Position numbers and translations under genes: made by a program. Source: Chitinophagaceae bacterium (GTDB lineage: Bacteria; Bacteroidota; Bacteroidia; Chitinophagales; Chitinophagaceae). From it: a stretch of 37,699 nucleotides of DNA. The notes below the pieces were generated by a model that did no database searches, was not told the origin of the DNA, and worked only from the letters and a program-made list of their open reading frames with translations. Positions 3,788 through 11,465 of the stretch are shown here, one piece after another. The number at the start of each line of letters is the position of its first letter. Within the stretch, counting starts at the first letter, position 1. The stretch is from the NCBI GenBank assembly GCA_021299955.1, contig JAJTFQ010000021.1, positions 1 to 37,699 on the forward strand. Reading direction: 5' to 3'.

Positions 3788-3875
3788 CCAATATGTTTTA
3801 CGCATTTTTCTGTAAATGAGATAAATACTATCATTGGATTACGTTAACCGATCGCATAATACACAACTCCGCAGC

Positions 3876-5024
3876 ATGCAGGAACGCTATCCCTCGCTCG
3901 ATGTCTTCCGTGGCGCCACCGTGGCACTGATGATCCTGGTGAACAACCCGGGTAGCTGGTCGCACATCTACTCGCCACTGGCTCATGCCTCCTGGCATGG
4001 TGCTACGCCCACCGATCTCGTGTTTCCCTTCTTCCTCTTCGCCGTCGGCAACGCCCTCGCCTTTGTCATGCCCCGGTTCGAACAGTCCGGGCCCCTTGTC
4101 TTCCGAAACAAAGTGTTACGACGTACCCTGCTGATCTTCGGGATCGGCCTGCTGCTCAACGCCTTCCCCTTCGTGCGCTATGATGCAGAAGGACACCTCG
4201 TAATGAAACAATGGGAAAATCTCCGGATCATGGGCGTACTGCAACGCATCGCCCTCTGCTATCTCCTGGCGGCGACCTTCGCCTTCCGGTGGAAAGAACG
4301 CGGAACGCTGGTCACAGGCGGCATCCTGCTGATGGGCTACTGGCTGCTCTGCCTGGGACTGGGTACACCGGGCGATCCCTTCAGCCTCGAAGGATACTTC
4401 GGAAATACAGTAGATCGCGCCATCCTGGGCGAATCTCACCTCTATCGCGGCGAAGGTGTACCCTTCGATCCGGAAGGCCTCATGAGCACCCTGCCCGCCG
4501 CCGTGAACACCATGTTCGGCTATCTCACCGGTGCATACATCATACGCAAGGGACGCAACTGGGAAATGCTCTCCAACCTTTATGCAGCCGGCCTCGTGCT
4601 GGTCTTCACCGGTCTGTCATGGGGACTGCTCTTCCCCGTAAACAAGAAGATATGGACCAGCTCATACGTATTGTACACGGTCGGGCTTGCGATGTGTGTG
4701 CTGGGGATCTTCATCCACCTGCTCGAATTCAGAAGATCCGAAGGCGGCTGGAGCCGCTTCTTCCTGGTATTCGGACGCAATCCGCTCTTCATCTTTGTGC
4801 TCAGCGGCGTGGTGGCCAAGACCTACGGACTTTTCCGCATCGAAGACGGCATGAAAGATGGCCGGCCCGTCTTTCGCGGACTCGGAAACTGGATGTACGA
4901 ACATCTCTTCTCACCGCTGTTCGGTCAACTGAACGGATCATTGATGTATGCCCTGGCACACATCCTCGTATTCTGGCTGATCTGTCGCTGGCTGGATCGC
5001 AAAAATATCTACATCAGGGTCTGA
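3876..5024 (+). CDS. DUF5009/NagX-like membrane acyltransferase, copy 1
   Basis: A polytopic inner-membrane protein of 382 residues related to the heparan-alpha-glucosaminide N-acetyltransferase (HGSNAT)/NagX group, which transfers acetyl groups to amino sugars across a membrane. It opens with 'RYPSLDVFRGATV' and has the conserved 'HASWHGATPTDLVFPFFLF' near residues 37-55, with two His candidates for the acyl-carrying residue. Later come 'GVLQRIALCY', 'FDPEGLMSTLPA', 'LFPVNKKIWTSSY' and 'GRNPLFIF'. About ten hydrophobic segments follow. The ATG at 3876 is preferred because it matches the N-terminus of the second copy (9555-10673); an in-frame TTG at 3834 would add 14 residues. The epimerase-like gene follows after 52 bases and may be co-transcribed. 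The substrate is unknown. Confidence 0.8.
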   Translation: MQERYPSLDVFRGATVALMILVNNPGSWSHIYSPLAHASWHGATPTDLVFPFFLFAVGNALAFVMPRFEQSGPLVFRNKVLRRTLLIFGIGLLLNAFPFVRYDAEGHLVMKQWENLRIMGVLQRIALCYLLAATFAFRWKERGTLVTGGILLMGYWLLCLGLGTPGDPFSLEGYFGNTVDRAILGESHLYRGEGVPFDPEGLMSTLPAAVNTMFGYLTGAYIIRKGRNWEMLSNLYAAGLVLVFTGLSWGLLFPVNKKIWTSSYVLYTVGLAMCVLGIFIHLLEFRRSEGGWSRFFLVFGRNPLFIFVLSGVVAKTYGLFRIEDGMKDGRPVFRGLGNWMYEHLFSPLFGQLNGSLMYALAHILVFWLICRWLDRKNIYIRV

Positions 5025-6070: not shown

Positions 6071-7369
6071 TCAGTGCACTTCATAGATCTCCGCCCAGCG
6101 CGTGGTGAAGCGCCGGCTGCGGAGCTCCTGACGCATCTTCCAGTTGCGCGTCATGCCCGAGGCGGCATATTTGACGATGTCGTCGCGCATACTGACATTT
6201 AGGTTGTCGATCGCATCCATCAGTCCCTTCGCCCGGCCCGGCTCCGAAGGCATGAAGAGGTTGCCCTGGATGGCGACGTCCGGGACCAGTCCCCCAAGTA
6301 TCACTCCGGCCTTCAGATACTTCATGCCGGGTCGGTACAATTGCTCGACCAGCGGCAGGGTGAATGCCGTCAGCTCATGCGTCACCGAGGTCGGCCGCGG
6401 CAGTACGGCATACCGGTGATCGCTCCGGGGCTCATAGACATAACTGCCCGAACTGCCGCCACTCGTCACCACAAAAACATCCACGGTCGTCGCCGCCGAA
6501 TGCTGCCGCCGCAGCTTCTCCGCCGCCCGGGCCGTATACGTGGCCACCGCCTCGCGTAATGCCCCCGCATCAAAGACCGGAGCACCGAACATCCGCGTCG
6601 TGGCGATCATCTGCTTCTTCTCCAGCGGATCCTTTAACGCGATGCAGGCATGCCCCCGTAATTCCCGGATCAGACGCACCCCGACCACACCACCCAGCTG
6701 TCGGCGCGCCCACTCCTCCGGCATCTGACGCAGCTGCCAGGCCGTCCGAATACCATAATGATCACGCAGCCGCACCGCGTACCGGCGACCGATCCCCCAG
6801 AGATCCCCCACCTCCGTTCGCTCCAACGCCTCACGGATCGCGTCCTCCGAATCGAGCACCATCACACAGTTCGTCGCCTGCTTGTCCTTCTTCGCCAGTT
6901 TATTCGCCACCTTGCTCAATAGCTTCGTTGGCGCCAGACCCACAGACACCCGGATCCCCGTCCACTCCTCGACCACCATCCTCAGATGCATCGCAAAGGA
7001 TACCAAGCGGTCCGCCGGAATATGCCGCAGATCCAGAAAAGCCTCGTCCACCGAATAGACCTCCACCCGCTCATGAAGCCCCTCCGTGTCATCCATCAGA
7101 TGGCGCAACGTGTCCATCACCCGCATACTCATGTCGCCATACAAATGATAGTTCGATGAAAAAGCCGAAACTCCATGCGTCCGGAGCAGATCCCTGCACT
7201 GATAGAACGGTACGCCCATGTCTATGCCCAGCGACTTCGCCTCATCCGTCCGAGCAATGATGCAACCATCATTATTACTCAACACCACCACCGGCTGCGC
7301 CTGCAGATCCGGCCTGAACAATCGCTCACAGGAACAATAAAAACTGTTGCAGTCCACAATGCCCATCAT
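6071..7369 (-). CDS. umuC: Y-family DNA polymerase, UmuC-type (Pol V catalytic subunit)
   Basis: A translesion polymerase of 432 residues that copies across damaged template bases. The palm residues are intact: 'GIVDCNSFYCSCE' near the start, with the first metal-binding Asp, and 'VYSVDEAFLDL' with the DE pair. 'SVGLAPTKLLSKVANKLAKK' and 'LWGIGRRYAVRL' complete the palm and helix-hairpin-helix region. The UmuC C-terminal extension is present. It includes 'IQGNLF' near residues 367-372, which resembles the beta-clamp motif QLNLF of the E. coli protein. Two consecutive ATG codons (7369, 7366) are possible starts. It lies 29 bases downstream of umuD in a two-gene operon. Nothing suggests that this polymerase itself is inactive. 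Confidence 0.95.
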   Translation of the reverse strand: MMGIVDCNSFYCSCERLFRPDLQAQPVVVLSNNDGCIIARTDEAKSLGIDMGVPFYQCRDLLRTHGVSAFSSNYHLYGDMSMRVMDTLRHLMDDTEGLHERVEVYSVDEAFLDLRHIPADRLVSFAMHLRMVVEEWTGIRVSVGLAPTKLLSKVANKLAKKDKQATNCVMVLDSEDAIREALERTEVGDLWGIGRRYAVRLRDHYGIRTAWQLRQMPEEWARRQLGGVVGVRLIRELRGHACIALKDPLEKKQMIATTRMFGAPVFDAGALREAVATYTARAAEKLRRQHSAATTVDVFVVTSGGSSGSYVYEPRSDHRYAVLPRPTSVTHELTAFTLPLVEQLYRPGMKYLKAGVILGGLVPDVAIQGNLFMPSEPGRAKGLMDAIDNLNVSMRDDIVKYAASGMTRNWKMRQELRSRRFTTRWAEIYEVH

Positions 7370-7398: not shown

Positions 7399-7830
7399 TC
7401 ACAACGCATGGATCACATAGGTCACCACACCCCAGACCGAAAACTCTGCGTAGGGATCCACGTCGATCGTCGCCAGCCGGGGCGTCTCCGGGATCAGCCG
7501 GACACGGTTCAAGGTCCGCTCCAGCCGACGGATCAGCATATCCCCGTTCAGGGTCGCAATCACCACCCTACCACTCACAGGCTTCAGGCTCCGGTCCACG
7601 ATCACCACATCTCCGTCAAAAATGCCGGCCCCCGTCATCGCATCGCCCCGCACCCGCATAAAAAAAGTAGCCGGCTTGTTGCGCACGAGTTGCTCATTCA
7701 GATCGATCCCGCGCTCAGCATAGTCGTCCGTCGCCGCTCCGAAGCCGGTGGCCGCCGCCGTGCGGACCTGCTGCTGCGTGTATTGCCGCGTACCCTGGTA
7801 CGCGGCCCCTGATATCACTTCTCCATCCAT
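7399..7830 (-). CDS. umuD: UmuD-like S24 protein lacking the catalytic Ser-Lys dyad
   Basis: A protein of 143 residues aligned along its length with UmuD. The cleavage-region neighbourhood 'TGFGAATDDYAERGIDLNEQL' parallels E. coli 'CGFPSPAADYVEQRIDLNQ'. It is followed by 'ATFFMRVRGDAMTGAGIFDGDVVIVDR' and ends 'VWGVVTYVIHAL'. In UmuD/LexA the serine is in 'GDSM' and the lysine in 'TVKKL'. Here these read GDAM (Ala64, codon GCG) and 'LIRRL' (Arg101-Arg102, codons CGT CGG). Both self-cleavage residues are therefore replaced. UmuD normally cuts itself on RecA filaments to give UmuD', which activates UmuC. This copy is predicted not to cut. It may act as a constitutive scaffold or inhibitor, or be cleaved by another protein. 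There is no DNA-binding N-terminal domain, so it is not a LexA repressor. Confidence 0.88.
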   Translation of the reverse strand: MDGEVISGAAYQGTRQYTQQQVRTAAATGFGAATDDYAERGIDLNEQLVRNKPATFFMRVRGDAMTGAGIFDGDVVIVDRSLKPVSGRVVIATLNGDMLIRRLERTLNRVRLIPETPRLATIDVDPYAEFSVWGVVTYVIHAL

Positions 7831-7840
7831 GAGTATATTT

Positions 7841-7880
7841 TTTGAAATACTAAATTATTTAGTAATTTCATGCTAAACAA
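7841..7880. promoter_or_regulatory. Divergent umuD / 7905-gene promoters sharing one palindromic operator
   Basis: A perfect inverted repeat TACTAAATTATTTAGTA (7848-7864, 8-bp arms around one central base) lies in an AT-rich island. Minus strand, towards umuD: TTG (7878-7880), 20-base spacer, TAATTTAG (7850-7857), which is inside the palindrome. Plus strand, towards 7905: TTTG (7841-7844), 18-base spacer, TAATTTCA (7863-7870), overlapping the palindrome end. Both -7 boxes deviate from TAnnTTTG only in the last two positions. A repressor bound at the palindrome would cover both promoters, so the two units are probably switched together, plausibly by DNA damage. The protein that binds is unknown; no lexA gene is in the window. 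Confidence 0.6.
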
Positions 7881-7904: not shown

Positions 7905-8501
7905 ATGGTTGGAATGACCACACGGACGAACGAAACTGCGCCTTGGAAACCGCAGGGCGGAGAAACCGCCTGGCAGGAATGGATGTACCGGCTCGTGATC
8001 TGCCCCGAAGGCGAAGCCGCAGAACGGATCAGACAACTCAACGGAGGGCGGGCGACAGAACCACTGCGTGCACAACTGCCATCCATCCCTCTGATCGCCT
8101 TCCGCGGACGCGAGGCCATGGAAGACACCATCATCCGCTGGGTGCAGCGCGTGTGCCGGATGCAACGGCGTTTCCCGATCAGCCTGGAAAAACCCGAACG
8201 CCATCCGGCCGGCGGCTGGAGAATGGCCGTGACGGATACCGACACCCTGTGCGGACTATCGGAAAAACTGTCGGTGATCGACGACTACATCCGCGCTTGC
8301 CGAATGGGGCCCGTCCACCGCGAAACAAACCACGCCTGCCGTCAGGAGGGGACATCCGGCATGAGCGCGATGCCGGACATACCGGCGACAGACAAGGAAA
8401 GGCCGTTCACCAGCTTCATGGCCCATAGCCTCGTACTGACGCGACAGGCATACGCCGGCAGTACAACGGAGGTCGTCAACCTGTTCGCCTTCCTACCCTG
8501 A
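7905..8501 (+). CDS. Uncharacterised protein, possible degenerate 2'-5' RNA ligase (2H) family member
   Basis: A soluble protein of 198 residues. The layout recalls Bacteroidota 2'-5' RNA ligase-like (2H phosphoesterase) proteins. There is an initial strand 'YRLVICPEGEAAERI', then 'LPSIPLIAF' where the family has a 'PHITL' strand, then 'FPISLEKPERHPAGGW', and a closing 'FMAHSLVLTRQ...EVVNLFAFLP' like the usual 'f.v..l.Llk....y..v..f.f'. The first catalytic H-x-T is replaced by Ser-Ile-Pro. No clear second H-x-T/S is found (the region reads 'VHRETNHACRQ'). If the relationship is right, the protein is catalytically dead. It is divergent from umuD and shares its palindromic operator, suggesting a damage-related function. 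The family assignment is inference; the safe statement is unknown function. Confidence 0.55.
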   Translation: MVGMTTRTNETAPWKPQGGETAWQEWMYRLVICPEGEAAERIRQLNGGRATEPLRAQLPSIPLIAFRGREAMEDTIIRWVQRVCRMQRRFPISLEKPERHPAGGWRMAVTDTDTLCGLSEKLSVIDDYIRACRMGPVHRETNHACRQEGTSGMSAMPDIPATDKERPFTSFMAHSLVLTRQAYAGSTTEVVNLFAFLP

Positions 8502-8630
8502 TCAGCACGTGTTTACACAGTGCAGAAAGGCCGGAAAAACGAACATCGACACAGAAAAATCACCCCGGAATCCGTTGATCACGACGAGGTGGAGAAGGCC
8601 TTGCGTGTGACTTTTACCAAAACAAGTCAC

Positions 8631-9461
8631 ATGGCCGGAAAAGAACAACGGAACAGGATCAGTCTCGACGATCAACTCAGGATCGAAAACGAGATCATCA
8701 AGATGAAACTTATGCTCGAATATGGTGCCCGGTTCGGTAGCGGACAGGATTCGGAAAAAATGGAGCCCGCCCTGGAACACGCCTTCCTCAAACACGTGCT
8801 CGCCATGGAAGAGGCACACCGGAACGGAAAAAACCTGACGGTGTTCGAAAAGATCGGCAGCCCGGCCGATATCCGCCCGGCGGAGGAACTTTCGGAAGAC
8901 GAACTGCCGGAAGCACTGCGGGAACTGCAAGAACGACTGGCCGGACATGGGATAGAGGTACGGCCGATGGAAAAGAACATCGATCCGGAAGCATTCTACC
9001 GCTTCCTGACCAAAGATCTGATGGAGATCTGCGTGCTCGACAGCCCCGGTATCCATTGCTTCCTGTTTGAAGCGCACCCTGCACCGGAAGGATCCCGCCT
9101 CGAACGCATTGCTCAGGAAGCATGCCTCCAATCCATCATCTCCGGAAAGGCACCGCTCGGAGAAATTACCAAAGAAAGGCCCCTGCGGCTGAACGGATTC
9201 GACCATCACGACCGCACCTCCATCCAGCAAAGACTGATGAGATTCAGGGCTCCGTATGAGGATGTGCTCGGACTCGACAAACGGATCTGCCGCACCATCA
9301 TGGAACAAGATACCTGCACCGTCCACGGCTCGCATGAAACCGCACTATGCATGAAAGACCGCTGCGAGATCATCCGCGGTGACTGGTTCGTGACCTTCCA
9401 GCGGAGCAGATCAGATGAATGGGGCATTGCCGAGATCGACATCGATGGACTGAGGATTTGA
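8631..9461 (+). CDS. Conserved-looking protein of unknown function next to the umuDC cassette
   Basis: A soluble, acidic protein of 276 residues that I cannot assign to a named family. It begins with a helical stretch 'SLDDQLRIENEIIKMKLMLEYGARFG', then 'LEHAFLKHVLAMEEAHRNG' and 'VFEKIGSPADIRPAEELSEDELPEAL'. 'EAFYRFLTKDLMEI' precedes a C-terminal half ending 'RGDWFVTFQRSRSDEWGIAEIDIDG', which could be a small alpha+beta (NTF2-like) domain. From memory, proteins with this 'LENE..kLkl..eyGa' and 'YRFLT.dL' pattern occur as hypothetical proteins in Bacteroidota. The ATG at 8631 lies ten residues before the first recognisable segment; an in-frame GTG at 8520 would add 37 residues. It follows the 7905 gene on the same strand by about 130 bases and may be co-expressed with it. 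Confidence 0.6.
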   Translation: MAGKEQRNRISLDDQLRIENEIIKMKLMLEYGARFGSGQDSEKMEPALEHAFLKHVLAMEEAHRNGKNLTVFEKIGSPADIRPAEELSEDELPEALRELQERLAGHGIEVRPMEKNIDPEAFYRFLTKDLMEICVLDSPGIHCFLFEAHPAPEGSRLERIAQEACLQSIISGKAPLGEITKERPLRLNGFDHHDRTSIQQRLMRFRAPYEDVLGLDKRICRTIMEQDTCTVHGSHETALCMKDRCEIIRGDWFVTFQRSRSDEWGIAEIDIDGLRI

Positions 9462-9554: not shown

Positions 9555-10673
9555 ATGACCCAGACCGCCATCACCAGATACCCGGCCATCGACCTGCTGC
9601 GGGGGATCACTGTTTGCTTCATGATCATCGTTAATACCGGCGGATCAGGAGCCGAGCCTTACGCGCTGCTGCAACATGCGGAATGGCACGGATTCACACC
9701 GACAGACCTGGTATTTCCGACCTTCCTGTTTGTCGTGGGAAATGCACTGGCCTTCACCATGCCGAAACTGCAGGCCATGGAAGATAAACAGGCGATATGG
9801 AAGATCCTGAAACGCACCGCCCTGATCTTCGGACTTGGCTATCTGATGTATTGGTTCCCATTCGTGCGCTTCGATGAAAGCGGCGGTTGGACATGGAAAC
9901 ACATCTCGGAAACCCGCATCCTCGGCGTGCTGCAGCGCATCGCCCTCTGCTATGGTATCAGCGCGCTCTTGCTCCGCTCGCTGAATGTCAGAAGCATTTG
10001 GATCACCGGCCTGCTGATATTGATCGGGTACTGGGCACTCATGGCCTGGGGTGGTGATTACACCATCGAAAACAACCTGGCCAGGCAGATCGACAGACTG
10101 CTGCTCGGAGATGCACACCTGTACCACGGAGATGACATCGCGTTCGATCCTGAGGGACTCCTGAGCACCCTGCCGTCCCTGATCAATGTATGGGCAGGCT
10201 ACCTCGCAGCCGAACACATCCGCAGGAACGGTGATCGTTACAAAGTCGTTGCCGATGTGATGATCGCTGCCATGGTGATGCTGTTCGTCGCTTATCTGTG
10301 GGACCGGCTGTTCCCGGTCAACAAGAAACTGTGGACAAGCTCCTTCAGCCTGCTCACCGGCGGCCTGTCGATGGCCATCCTTGCACTGCTCATCTTTCTG
10401 ACGGAAATACACAGATACAAGGTGGGAGCAGGATTCTTCGGGGCATTCGGCAGAAACCCGCTGTTCATATATCTGCTGTCTGAACTCCTGGCCATCCTGA
10501 TGTGGGCCATACCTGCCGGAAATCGGTCCGTGTACGAATATGTGAACGATATGCTCTTCCAGTCCATTCTGCCGGGCGCGAATGGGTCCCTGCTTTTCGC
10601 TGTTACTTTCATGTTCATCTGCTGGATCGCCGGACGCATCCTCGACAGAAAGCGGATCTACATCCGCGTATGA
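9555..10673 (+). CDS. DUF5009/NagX-like membrane acyltransferase, copy 2
   Basis: A multi-pass membrane protein of 372 residues, paralogous to the 3876-5024 product. It has the same ordered landmarks: 'RYPAIDLLRGITV', 'HAEWHGFTPTDLVFPTFLF' (residues 41-59), 'LGVLQRIALCY', 'FDPEGLLSTLPS', 'LFPVNKKLWTSSF' and 'GRNPLFIY'. Both proteins end with a similar 'DRK-I-YIRV' tail. The predicted activity is transmembrane acyl (acetyl) transfer to a sugar or amino sugar, as in HGSNAT/NagX relatives. The two copies differ substantially between these landmarks, which argues for an old duplication or separate acquisition rather than a recent tandem copy. It ends three bases from the convergent SRAP gene. Substrate and donor are not evident. 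Confidence 0.8.
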   Translation: MTQTAITRYPAIDLLRGITVCFMIIVNTGGSGAEPYALLQHAEWHGFTPTDLVFPTFLFVVGNALAFTMPKLQAMEDKQAIWKILKRTALIFGLGYLMYWFPFVRFDESGGWTWKHISETRILGVLQRIALCYGISALLLRSLNVRSIWITGLLILIGYWALMAWGGDYTIENNLARQIDRLLLGDAHLYHGDDIAFDPEGLLSTLPSLINVWAGYLAAEHIRRNGDRYKVVADVMIAAMVMLFVAYLWDRLFPVNKKLWTSSFSLLTGGLSMAILALLIFLTEIHRYKVGAGFFGAFGRNPLFIYLLSELLAILMWAIPAGNRSVYEYVNDMLFQSILPGANGSLLFAVTFMFICWIAGRILDRKRIYIRV

Positions 10674-10676
10674 CGA

Positions 10677-11465
10677 TCATGCCGTCAGTAAAGGCAACTC
10701 AGGATAGGTGAATGGCTGGGTCGGATCGGCCGCCTCCCTGAAATCCTTACGGATCGTCTGCGCATGCATCTGTGCCGACGGATACTGCCACGTAGCCAGC
10801 GCACGGAGTTCTGTTTCCGGCAGGTCCGCCCGGATCCACGCCTCGGCGTGATCCTCGTCCAGGATCAGTGGCATGCGTTGTTTGCGATTGTGCACCTCCG
10901 ACATCAGCGTGTTCGCTGCGGTGGTTACGATCGCAAAGGTCTCCATCGTCTCGCCCGTCTCCTGATCCGTCCACGGCTGCCAGATGCCACCCATGAAGAA
11001 ATATTCATGACCGGGCAACGTAATGTGATACGGATATGCCTGATCCTTTTTCGAGCCGGGGGGTGTGAAATGCCTCCATTCGTAGAAGCCGGATGACAAT
11101 ACCAGGCATCTCCGCTGCTGAGCCGCCTGTTTGTAGGATACCTTTTCCAACATCTCTTCGCCAATCGCGTTCAACGTATTTCTGGGCGGATCGCGCCTGC
11201 CCGTCTTTGGATTCAGACCGCCATGCCTGAAATGCATCCAGTCTGCAGCTGTTCGGATATAAAAGGGGACCAGCTCCCAGTGCATAAGCACCAGGTCCGC
11301 ATCCTTGCCGCCATCTTTAGGCCGCAATACAGGCCACTGGCCGTAGGCAAACCCGCTCTGCATCGGGCGCTGCAACTCCGGCCTGAAAGACCCGATCTCC
11401 TGCTCGATCTTCTTCAATCGAATGTGCTCGGCGCGATTTACATTGATCCCGTTGTAAAAACACAT
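10677..11465 (-). CDS. SOS response-associated peptidase (SRAP), YedK/HMCES-type abasic-site sensor
   Basis: A protein of 262 residues with the complete SRAP signature. Cys2 follows the initiator Met (which must be removed). Asn99 lies in 'TLNAIGEEM', Glu129 in 'SGFYEW', and His192 in 'VHNRKQRMPLIL'. Family members use Cys2 to form a thiazolidine cross-link with abasic sites in single-stranded DNA, shielding them at stalled forks. The Glu and His residues serve cross-link formation and reversal. The start is fixed by the need for Cys at position 2. A -7-like TACATTAG lies just upstream on the minus strand; the umuD-type palindrome is absent. Its presence near umuDC fits a DNA-damage neighbourhood. 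Confidence 0.92.
   Translation of the reverse strand: MCFYNGINVNRAEHIRLKKIEQEIGSFRPELQRPMQSGFAYGQWPVLRPKDGGKDADLVLMHWELVPFYIRTAADWMHFRHGGLNPKTGRRDPPRNTLNAIGEEMLEKVSYKQAAQQRRCLVLSSGFYEWRHFTPPGSKKDQAYPYHITLPGHEYFFMGGIWQPWTDQETGETMETFAIVTTAANTLMSEVHNRKQRMPLILDEDHAEAWIRADLPETELRALATWQYPSAQMHAQTIRKDFREAADPTQPFTYPELPLLTA

Follow-up and report, generated by a model that had tools for sequence, protein, structure and literature searches.

What becomes of UmuD when both residues of its catalytic dyad have been replaced? Self-cleavage of UmuD is the textbook gate on SOS mutagenesis, and the question is raised by a gene in a stretch of 37,699 nucleotides from a Chitinophagaceae bacterium (contig JAJTFQ010000021.1), the whole of which is referred to here as the window. 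A first-pass annotation of this gene, which starts with ATG, had proposed that Ala64 and Arg101 occupy the columns of Ser60 and Lys97 of Escherichia coli UmuD. Our alignment confirmed both replacements, with Arg101 falling on the first Lys of the E. coli VKKL motif, which is Lys97, and the motifs GDAM and IRRL were found as described. The features discussed below are listed in Table 1.

Table 1. Features of the umuDC locus in the window, with positions, strand and the basis of each assignment.
Feature	Positions	Strand	Basis
umuC, Y-family polymerase with SVDEAF motif and C-terminal DUF4113	6071..7369	-	Pfam, NCBIfam, motif
umuD, UmuD without dyad, 143 aa	7399..7830	-	ORF, profiles, PDB sequence matches, model
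Arg101 codon (CGT), column of general base Lys97	7528..7530	-	alignment
Ala64 codon (GCG), column of catalytic Ser60	7639..7641	-	alignment
Thr28-Gly29, former scissile junction	7744..7749	-	alignment
N-terminal arm, residues 1-28; a different conserved arm replacing the docking arm	7747..7830	-	residue counts, dN/dS, motif count
SOS box ACTAAATAATTTAGT, CTAA-N5-TTAG, palindromic, written on the umuD strand	7849..7863	.	motif scan

The protein is a UmuD by profile and by fold. It scored 85 bits against Pfam Peptidase_S24 (cut-off 23.3) and 128.5 bits against NCBIfam NF007621 (cut-off 110), its best PDB sequence matches were UmuD and UmuD', and its predicted structure was superimposed on that of UmuD' (1umu_A) with a TM-score of 0.93, normalised to the target length, and an rmsd of 1.6. 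Sequence identity amounted to 36% with 1umu in the Foldseek alignment and to 27-33% with nine canonical UmuD proteins of Bacteroidota. In contrast, the Ser-Lys dyad of UmuD and of active S24 peptidases (nucleophile Ser, base Lys) was absent, and so was the Ala-Gly or Cys-Gly cut site, since Thr28 (ATGF) takes the place of the Ala or Cys that cleavable proteins carry just before the cut. Thus, where E. coli UmuD has Ser60, Lys97 and a Cys at P1, the window protein has Ala, Arg and Thr. The label attached to NF007621, 'autoproteolytic subunit' of Pol V, can therefore be wrong, as the window UmuD receives it above the cut-off. Two related families were considered and rejected, namely HumD (NF051876, 64.6 bits against a cut-off of 120, and a 28-residue arm is present) and LexA (TIGR00498, 58.3 bits against a cut-off of 110.95, with Peptidase_S24 as the only domain found by Pfam).

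We examined how far the replacements extend among relatives. Of 99 relatives searched, 49 had a match, as did 180 of the 294 genomes in a sample of the family, and a scan of named genomes yielded 80 loci kept of 163 relatives found. Together with 30 loci from a class-level search, 190 distinct coding sequences were read, the window's own included. Leaving aside the class-level loci, 160 remain; 151 of them share at least 44% identity with the window UmuD, and every one of these has Arg at the Lys column. The remaining nine, at most 41% identical, comprise seven genes with the Ser-Lys dyad, one with Arg (L048) and one spurious match (L051) that was left outside the residue counts. All 30 class-level UmuDs have Ser and Lys, and in every UmuD read, with the exception of the spurious match, the Lys column holds either Lys or Arg and nothing else. 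The 151 genes and L048 are hereafter called Arg-type genes (n = 152). Their Ser column holds Ala in 124, Ser in 22, Thr in three, Asn in two and Cys in one. The recurrence of Ala64 and Arg101 that the first-pass annotation had suggested looking for was thus observed, with Ala as the majority residue at the former column. By their titles, the named Arg-type records belong to Chitinophagaceae and include Niastella, Puia, Flavitalea, Longitalea, Ferruginibacter, Pinibacter and Paraflavisolibacter, which are genera of this family.

Two of the loci read lie apart from the general picture. L048, from a genome of another family of the order (G075), encodes a diverged UmuD that is 38% identical to the window protein, has the motifs GQNM and VRQL and sits on a long branch; it is perhaps another, separate loss of the dyad. 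In G022, a genome of the same genus as the window's, the only UmuD obtained was of the Ser-Lys kind (L050, 33% identical), which perhaps reflects horizontal replacement or a foreign contig.

The window's genome is assembled in 219 contigs and is 76% complete, and these figures would leave room for decay, an assembly error or contamination in a single genome. However, a second genome encodes the identical protein, and relatives down to 44% identity, cultured species among them, have these residues too. Furthermore, dN/dS ratios were low, with values of 0.129 for codons 2-28, 0.018 for codons 29-40 and 0.049 for codons 41-143; these were pooled over 99 pairs from 51 genes with 0.58-0.70 synonymous differences per site, which is near saturation, so that the ratios are rough. 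Decay or error in one genome is refuted by this recurrence and these low ratios, and we consider its probability negligible. The pattern that the first-pass annotation had named as speaking against its proposal, relatives with GDSM and Lys and a change in the window's genome alone, was looked for and not encountered, and its view of a maintained gene is supported by the replacement in 151 of 151 genes, by dN/dS values near 0.05 (core) and 0.13 (arm), and by the presence of a downstream umuC in 86 of 93 loci. Direct production of UmuD' from a start within the gene was also rejected, because the window UmuD has no Met between residues 1 and 29, the starts picked by script are ATG in all 152 Arg-type genes, and codons 2-28 are under purifying selection.

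The codons at the two columns bear on the history of the change. The catalytic serines of the Ser-Lys rows are encoded by TCN in 34 of 37 cases, whereas the serines found in Arg-type genes are encoded by AGY in 18 of 22. As TCN and AGY are not one step apart, most of these remaining serines probably arose anew once the constraint had been lifted. The Arg codons are CGN in 115 of the 152 genes, two steps away from AAR, which suggests that the Lys-to-Arg change is old. These data also bear on residual autocleavage, in which Arg would serve as the base and another residue as the nucleophile. In its favour, Arg is present in 151 of 151 genes and never drifts to another residue, and a Lys-to-Arg mutant of LexA may cut slowly at high pH. 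Nevertheless, the nucleophile column holds Ala in the window UmuD and lacks Ser in 130 of the 152 Arg-type genes, and we regard residual autocleavage as very improbable.

The cut site has changed along with the dyad. Whereas P1 is Ala in 35 of the 37 Ser-Lys rows (Ser in one, unread in one), it is Thr in 138 of the 152 Arg-type genes, Asn in eight, Ser in four, Pro in one and Gln in one; the old site thus reads Thr-, Asn- or Ser-Gly in 150 of the 152 genes and Ala-Gly in none. At the same time, Gly29 is present in all 152 and Ala27 in 98% of them.

The arm preceding this site differs as well. A hydrophobic-Pro-hydrophobic motif at positions -10 to -8 before the cut was found in 29 of 36 canonical Ser-Lys UmuDs of Bacteroidota and in none of 147 Arg-type proteins, and under a looser rule the counts were 33 of 36 and 0 of 147 (L048, L170, L172, L173 and L195 are outside the 147, and L045 is outside the 36). 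Judging from its position, this motif would be the docking segment of the arm. The docking segment of E. coli UmuD, which reads TFPLF around T14, L17 and F18, has no counterpart in the window protein. Instead, residues 11-33 of the Arg-type arm follow the pattern Y-x-G-[ST]-K-x-[FY]-x-Q-x-x-[VI]-x-T-A-N-A-T-G-F-G-A-A (majority residues). In an AlphaFold2 model of the window UmuD the core was confident, while the arm had block means of pLDDT 44-49 and no strand; in a model of a canonical UmuD (L224), residues 1-20 had block means of 60 and 70 and formed two strands. Both models are monomers and their alignments differ in depth and make-up (83 versus 52 rows), so that the comparison is support rather than proof. 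In two Arg-type genes, L170 and L172, the arm is rearranged or missing, and L170 shares its genome with a Ser-Lys UmuD (L299).

Non-cleavable forms of the E. coli protein offer a precedent, the standard one being UmuD S60A. The E. coli arm can be undocked by changing T14, L17 and F18, and the resulting UmuD 3A (T14A L17A F18A), which keeps its arms at full length but undocked, cannot be cleaved and is regarded as a mimic of UmuD', according to the parts of PMC5342242 covered here. The window protein resembles UmuD 3A in having a full-length arm and in being apparently non-cleavable; undocking has been demonstrated for UmuD 3A and would follow here from the missing motif. In the absence of a docking motif, the window UmuD is probably already UmuD'-like, as UmuD 3A is in E. 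coli. Unlike this laboratory variant, however, the window type is natural, extends through the family, also lacks the dyad and has a different, conserved arm.

Expression of the gene appears to remain under damage control. The box upstream of umuD is the only CTAA-N5-TTAG in the window, where 0.08 would be expected. In the whole genome the exact pattern ACTAA-N5-TTAGT occurs three times, before umuD, before recA and before a gene for a 252-aa HTH-S24 protein, and the reversed control pattern occurs once. The box lies at most 200 bases from the start in 143 of the 149 Arg-type genes that have at least 60 upstream bases; L020, L173 and L195 have fewer, and no box was found in the remaining six of the 149 (L048, L123, L165, L168, L171 and L194). 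In Bacteroidetes, CTAA-N5-TTAG has been described upstream of umuDC, of recA and of the gene for the non-canonical LexA (Sanchez-Osuna et al. 2021, PMC8565304, parts covered). The window's genome has the elements of this regulon, with the box upstream of umuD and a putative S24 repressor gene that has the same box and encodes an intact dyad. This HTH-S24 protein looks like the SOS repressor by virtue of its box, S24 domain (32.9 bits), AAAGY cut site and dyad; its HTH part was judged from the sequence and from NCBIfam HTH-type matches below their cut-offs. Ser and Lys are kept in this protein in 21 of 21 genomes examined (20 with GDSM, one with GESM), and the box is present in all 19 genomes with upstream sequence. 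Since the dyad of the putative repressor is kept in the same genomes in which that of UmuD is gone, the S24 switch would have been retained in the former and lost in the latter.

Taken together, the sequences show that the nucleophile, the general base and the P1 residue have all changed, that Arg is fixed at the Lys column, that the docking-type motif has gone and another conserved arm has replaced it, that umuC is kept, and that an SOS box precedes the operon as it does recA and the putative repressor gene with its own Ser-Lys dyad. We therefore favour the view, which we hold to be somewhat more likely than not, that the window UmuD serves a Pol V-type translesion polymerase as its regulatory subunit, works without self-cleavage and is permanently UmuD'-like, so that Pol V would still be gated at the level of transcription but no longer after translation. 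According to this view, damage would lead to RecA filaments and these to self-cleavage of the repressor, an expectation based on the intact dyad of the latter and on the known regulon, so that umuDC would be made solely in response to damage. The dimer of UmuD would then need no cutting, because its arm probably no longer folds back on the globular domain, and could directly join UmuC and RecA in its uncut form. The arm, with its strongest constraint around ANATGFGAAADDY, would probably be a fixed contact surface, perhaps for the cleft of UmuC. Models of Pol V place the arm of UmuD' in this cleft (PMC12926913, parts covered), and such a placement would fit the strong constraint on residues 29-40.

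The polymerase subunit itself is largely as the first-pass annotation had it. Its umuC is an open frame, next in the operon after umuD, with SVDEAF at residue 106. The description as intact holds in these respects but less so by profile, as the protein scored 356 bits against the NCBIfam UmuC model, below the curated cut-off of 431, and is thus a diverged UmuC. In the 7 loci of 93 outside the count given above, no umuC was found on the same strand within 1 kb. Both points count against the view favoured above, as do the altered arms of L170 and L172 and the lone Ser-Lys UmuD of G022.

The first-pass annotation had suggested a permanent scaffold or inhibitor. In a wider form of this rival, a permanently uncut UmuD acts as a scaffold, as a checkpoint factor or as a brake on UmuC or the replicative polymerase, with Pol V in the E. 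coli sense being off. Greatly reduced UV mutagenesis is known from E. coli, so that a brake or scaffold is possible (PMC5342242, parts covered). It also agrees with this rival that the arm is kept and conserved. On the other hand, none of the 147 arms has the docking-type motif and the arm is modelled as disordered, and UmuC keeps SVDEAF and its place in the operon. On balance, such a role seems unlikely to us.

The conservation around the old cut site could also mean that another protease cuts there. The ANAT-GF site might be processed by a host protease or by a Ser-Lys UmuD of the same cell, and the constancy of Gly29 and Ala27 can be read in this way. To look for additional copies, a canonical UmuD served as the query against all 28 genomes of the family sample that had given at least two matches; this yielded 60 places, of which 30 were obtained as loci and read. 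Ser and Lys were found in 10 of these 30 second-copy loci, from eight genomes, four of which also have an Arg-type gene (L166, L167, L170 and L189), and cleavage in trans would therefore be possible in these four. However, no second UmuD was found in the window's genome (219 contigs, 76% complete), where the only other S24 match was the HTH-S24 protein, and no third S24 protein was found in 18 same-genus genomes that are at least 90% complete and have an Arg-type UmuD. The proposed dependence on a second S24 protein thus gains some ground from the extra Ser-Lys UmuDs of certain family genomes and loses it in the window's own genus. The search of the window's genome, at 76% completeness, for a second umuD or lexA with an intact dyad succeeded for the putative SOS repressor and not for UmuD. 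It also speaks against processing that P1 is Thr, Asn or Ser in nearly all Arg-type genes rather than Ala or Cys, and that the constraint is stronger still on residues 29-40, beyond the site, a pattern that binding to UmuC could account for. We consider processing by a protease to be a rather poor candidate.

A further set of 30 loci indicates that self-cleavage may also have been dispensed with in a different manner. Ten of their genes (L304-L308, L313, L315, L317, L326 and L332) start with Met right at the former cut site (M-GFPSP, M-AFPSP or M-LFPSP) and so encode a pre-cut UmuD'. In each of them the Lys column is occupied by Arg. Nine are in genomes that also match the arm-keeping type, while L317 is the sole match of its genome, and umuC adjoins nine of the ten, none being found beside L317. 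In a first tree of 136 rows, from which the arm and both dyad columns were omitted and in which 65 of 132 inner branches were unresolved, the pre-cut genes were scattered over several separate places and six changes were needed at the Lys column. In a second tree of 66 rows, picked after the first tree and with 118 usable columns, the arm-keeping group formed one side of a branch (100/100) and the Lys column needed five changes; a single origin of Lys-to-Arg, with all Arg rows in one clade, was rejected on these rows (p-AU of 0.007). Given separate Arg clades and a column that holds only Lys or Arg, the change looks convergent, with two outcomes, the arm being either removed or replaced. The lost docking motif, together with the separate lineages that encode a pre-cut UmuD', speaks for a subunit that is permanently UmuD'-like rather than for a scaffold or inhibitor or for processing by a protease. 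A broader proposal, which we judge to be evenly poised, is that the family dropped the post-translational checkpoint of Pol V and turned the arm into a permanent contact element, that other lineages reached the same end through a pre-cut UmuD', that Arg is an adaptive replacement, as it is what Lys changes to each time, and that Pol V does not require the cleavage of UmuD, which would be an optional level of control. As for mobile elements, all plasmid and phage matches kept were below 60% identity to the window UmuD and none covered 80% of the query, on the plasmid side among the matches listed; in the listed matches of both kinds the alignments begin at query residue 35 or later.

Several known systems share parts of this arrangement. 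With UmuD and UmuD' of E. coli, as subunit of Pol V, the window protein has in common the fold, the S24 domain, the umuD-umuC order and a damage-type operator. The LexA of Synechocystis is reportedly a transcription factor, whereas the window UmuD is a polymerase subunit. That LexA belongs to the S24 proteins as well, and autocleavage is believed not to act as its switch (PMC7567884, parts covered). HumD of phage P1 also has no cleavage step, but it is encoded in the short form while the window UmuD keeps its 28-residue arm, and HumD provides a precedent for a pre-cut UmuD' (PMC7092418, parts covered). The parts of PMC8565304 covered here share with the window's genome the non-canonical LexA regulon; they describe the dyad of the repressor and do not mention a loss of the dyad of UmuD. 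No report of a natural UmuD clade without the dyad was found in the literature searched, which mostly did not extend to subscription journals. A conserved clade of full-length UmuD without dyad, cut site and docking motif thus did not appear in that literature, whereas a pre-cut UmuD' was already known from HumD.

The Arg-type genes represent a natural, old and widespread case without UmuD self-cleavage, which includes the cultured genera Niastella, Puia and Ferruginibacter. Two questions thereby become directly testable, namely the contribution of cleavage beyond control at the level of transcription, and the role of an uncut arm that does not act as a brake. Bacteria whose UmuD lacks what self-cleavage requires, but whose umuD apparently stays under damage control, probably regulate their error-prone polymerase differently.

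Lastly, some neighbours of umuDC should be mentioned. Two open reading frames without a Pfam match (7905-8501 and 8520-9461, both on the plus strand) lie between umuD and the second of two genes for HGSNAT_cat-type membrane acyltransferases, which flank the umuDC neighbourhood at 3837-5024 and 9555-10673, again on the plus strand. About 3 kb from umuDC, at 10677-11465 on the minus strand, there is a SRAP gene for an SOS response-associated peptidase (PF02586, 126 bits).
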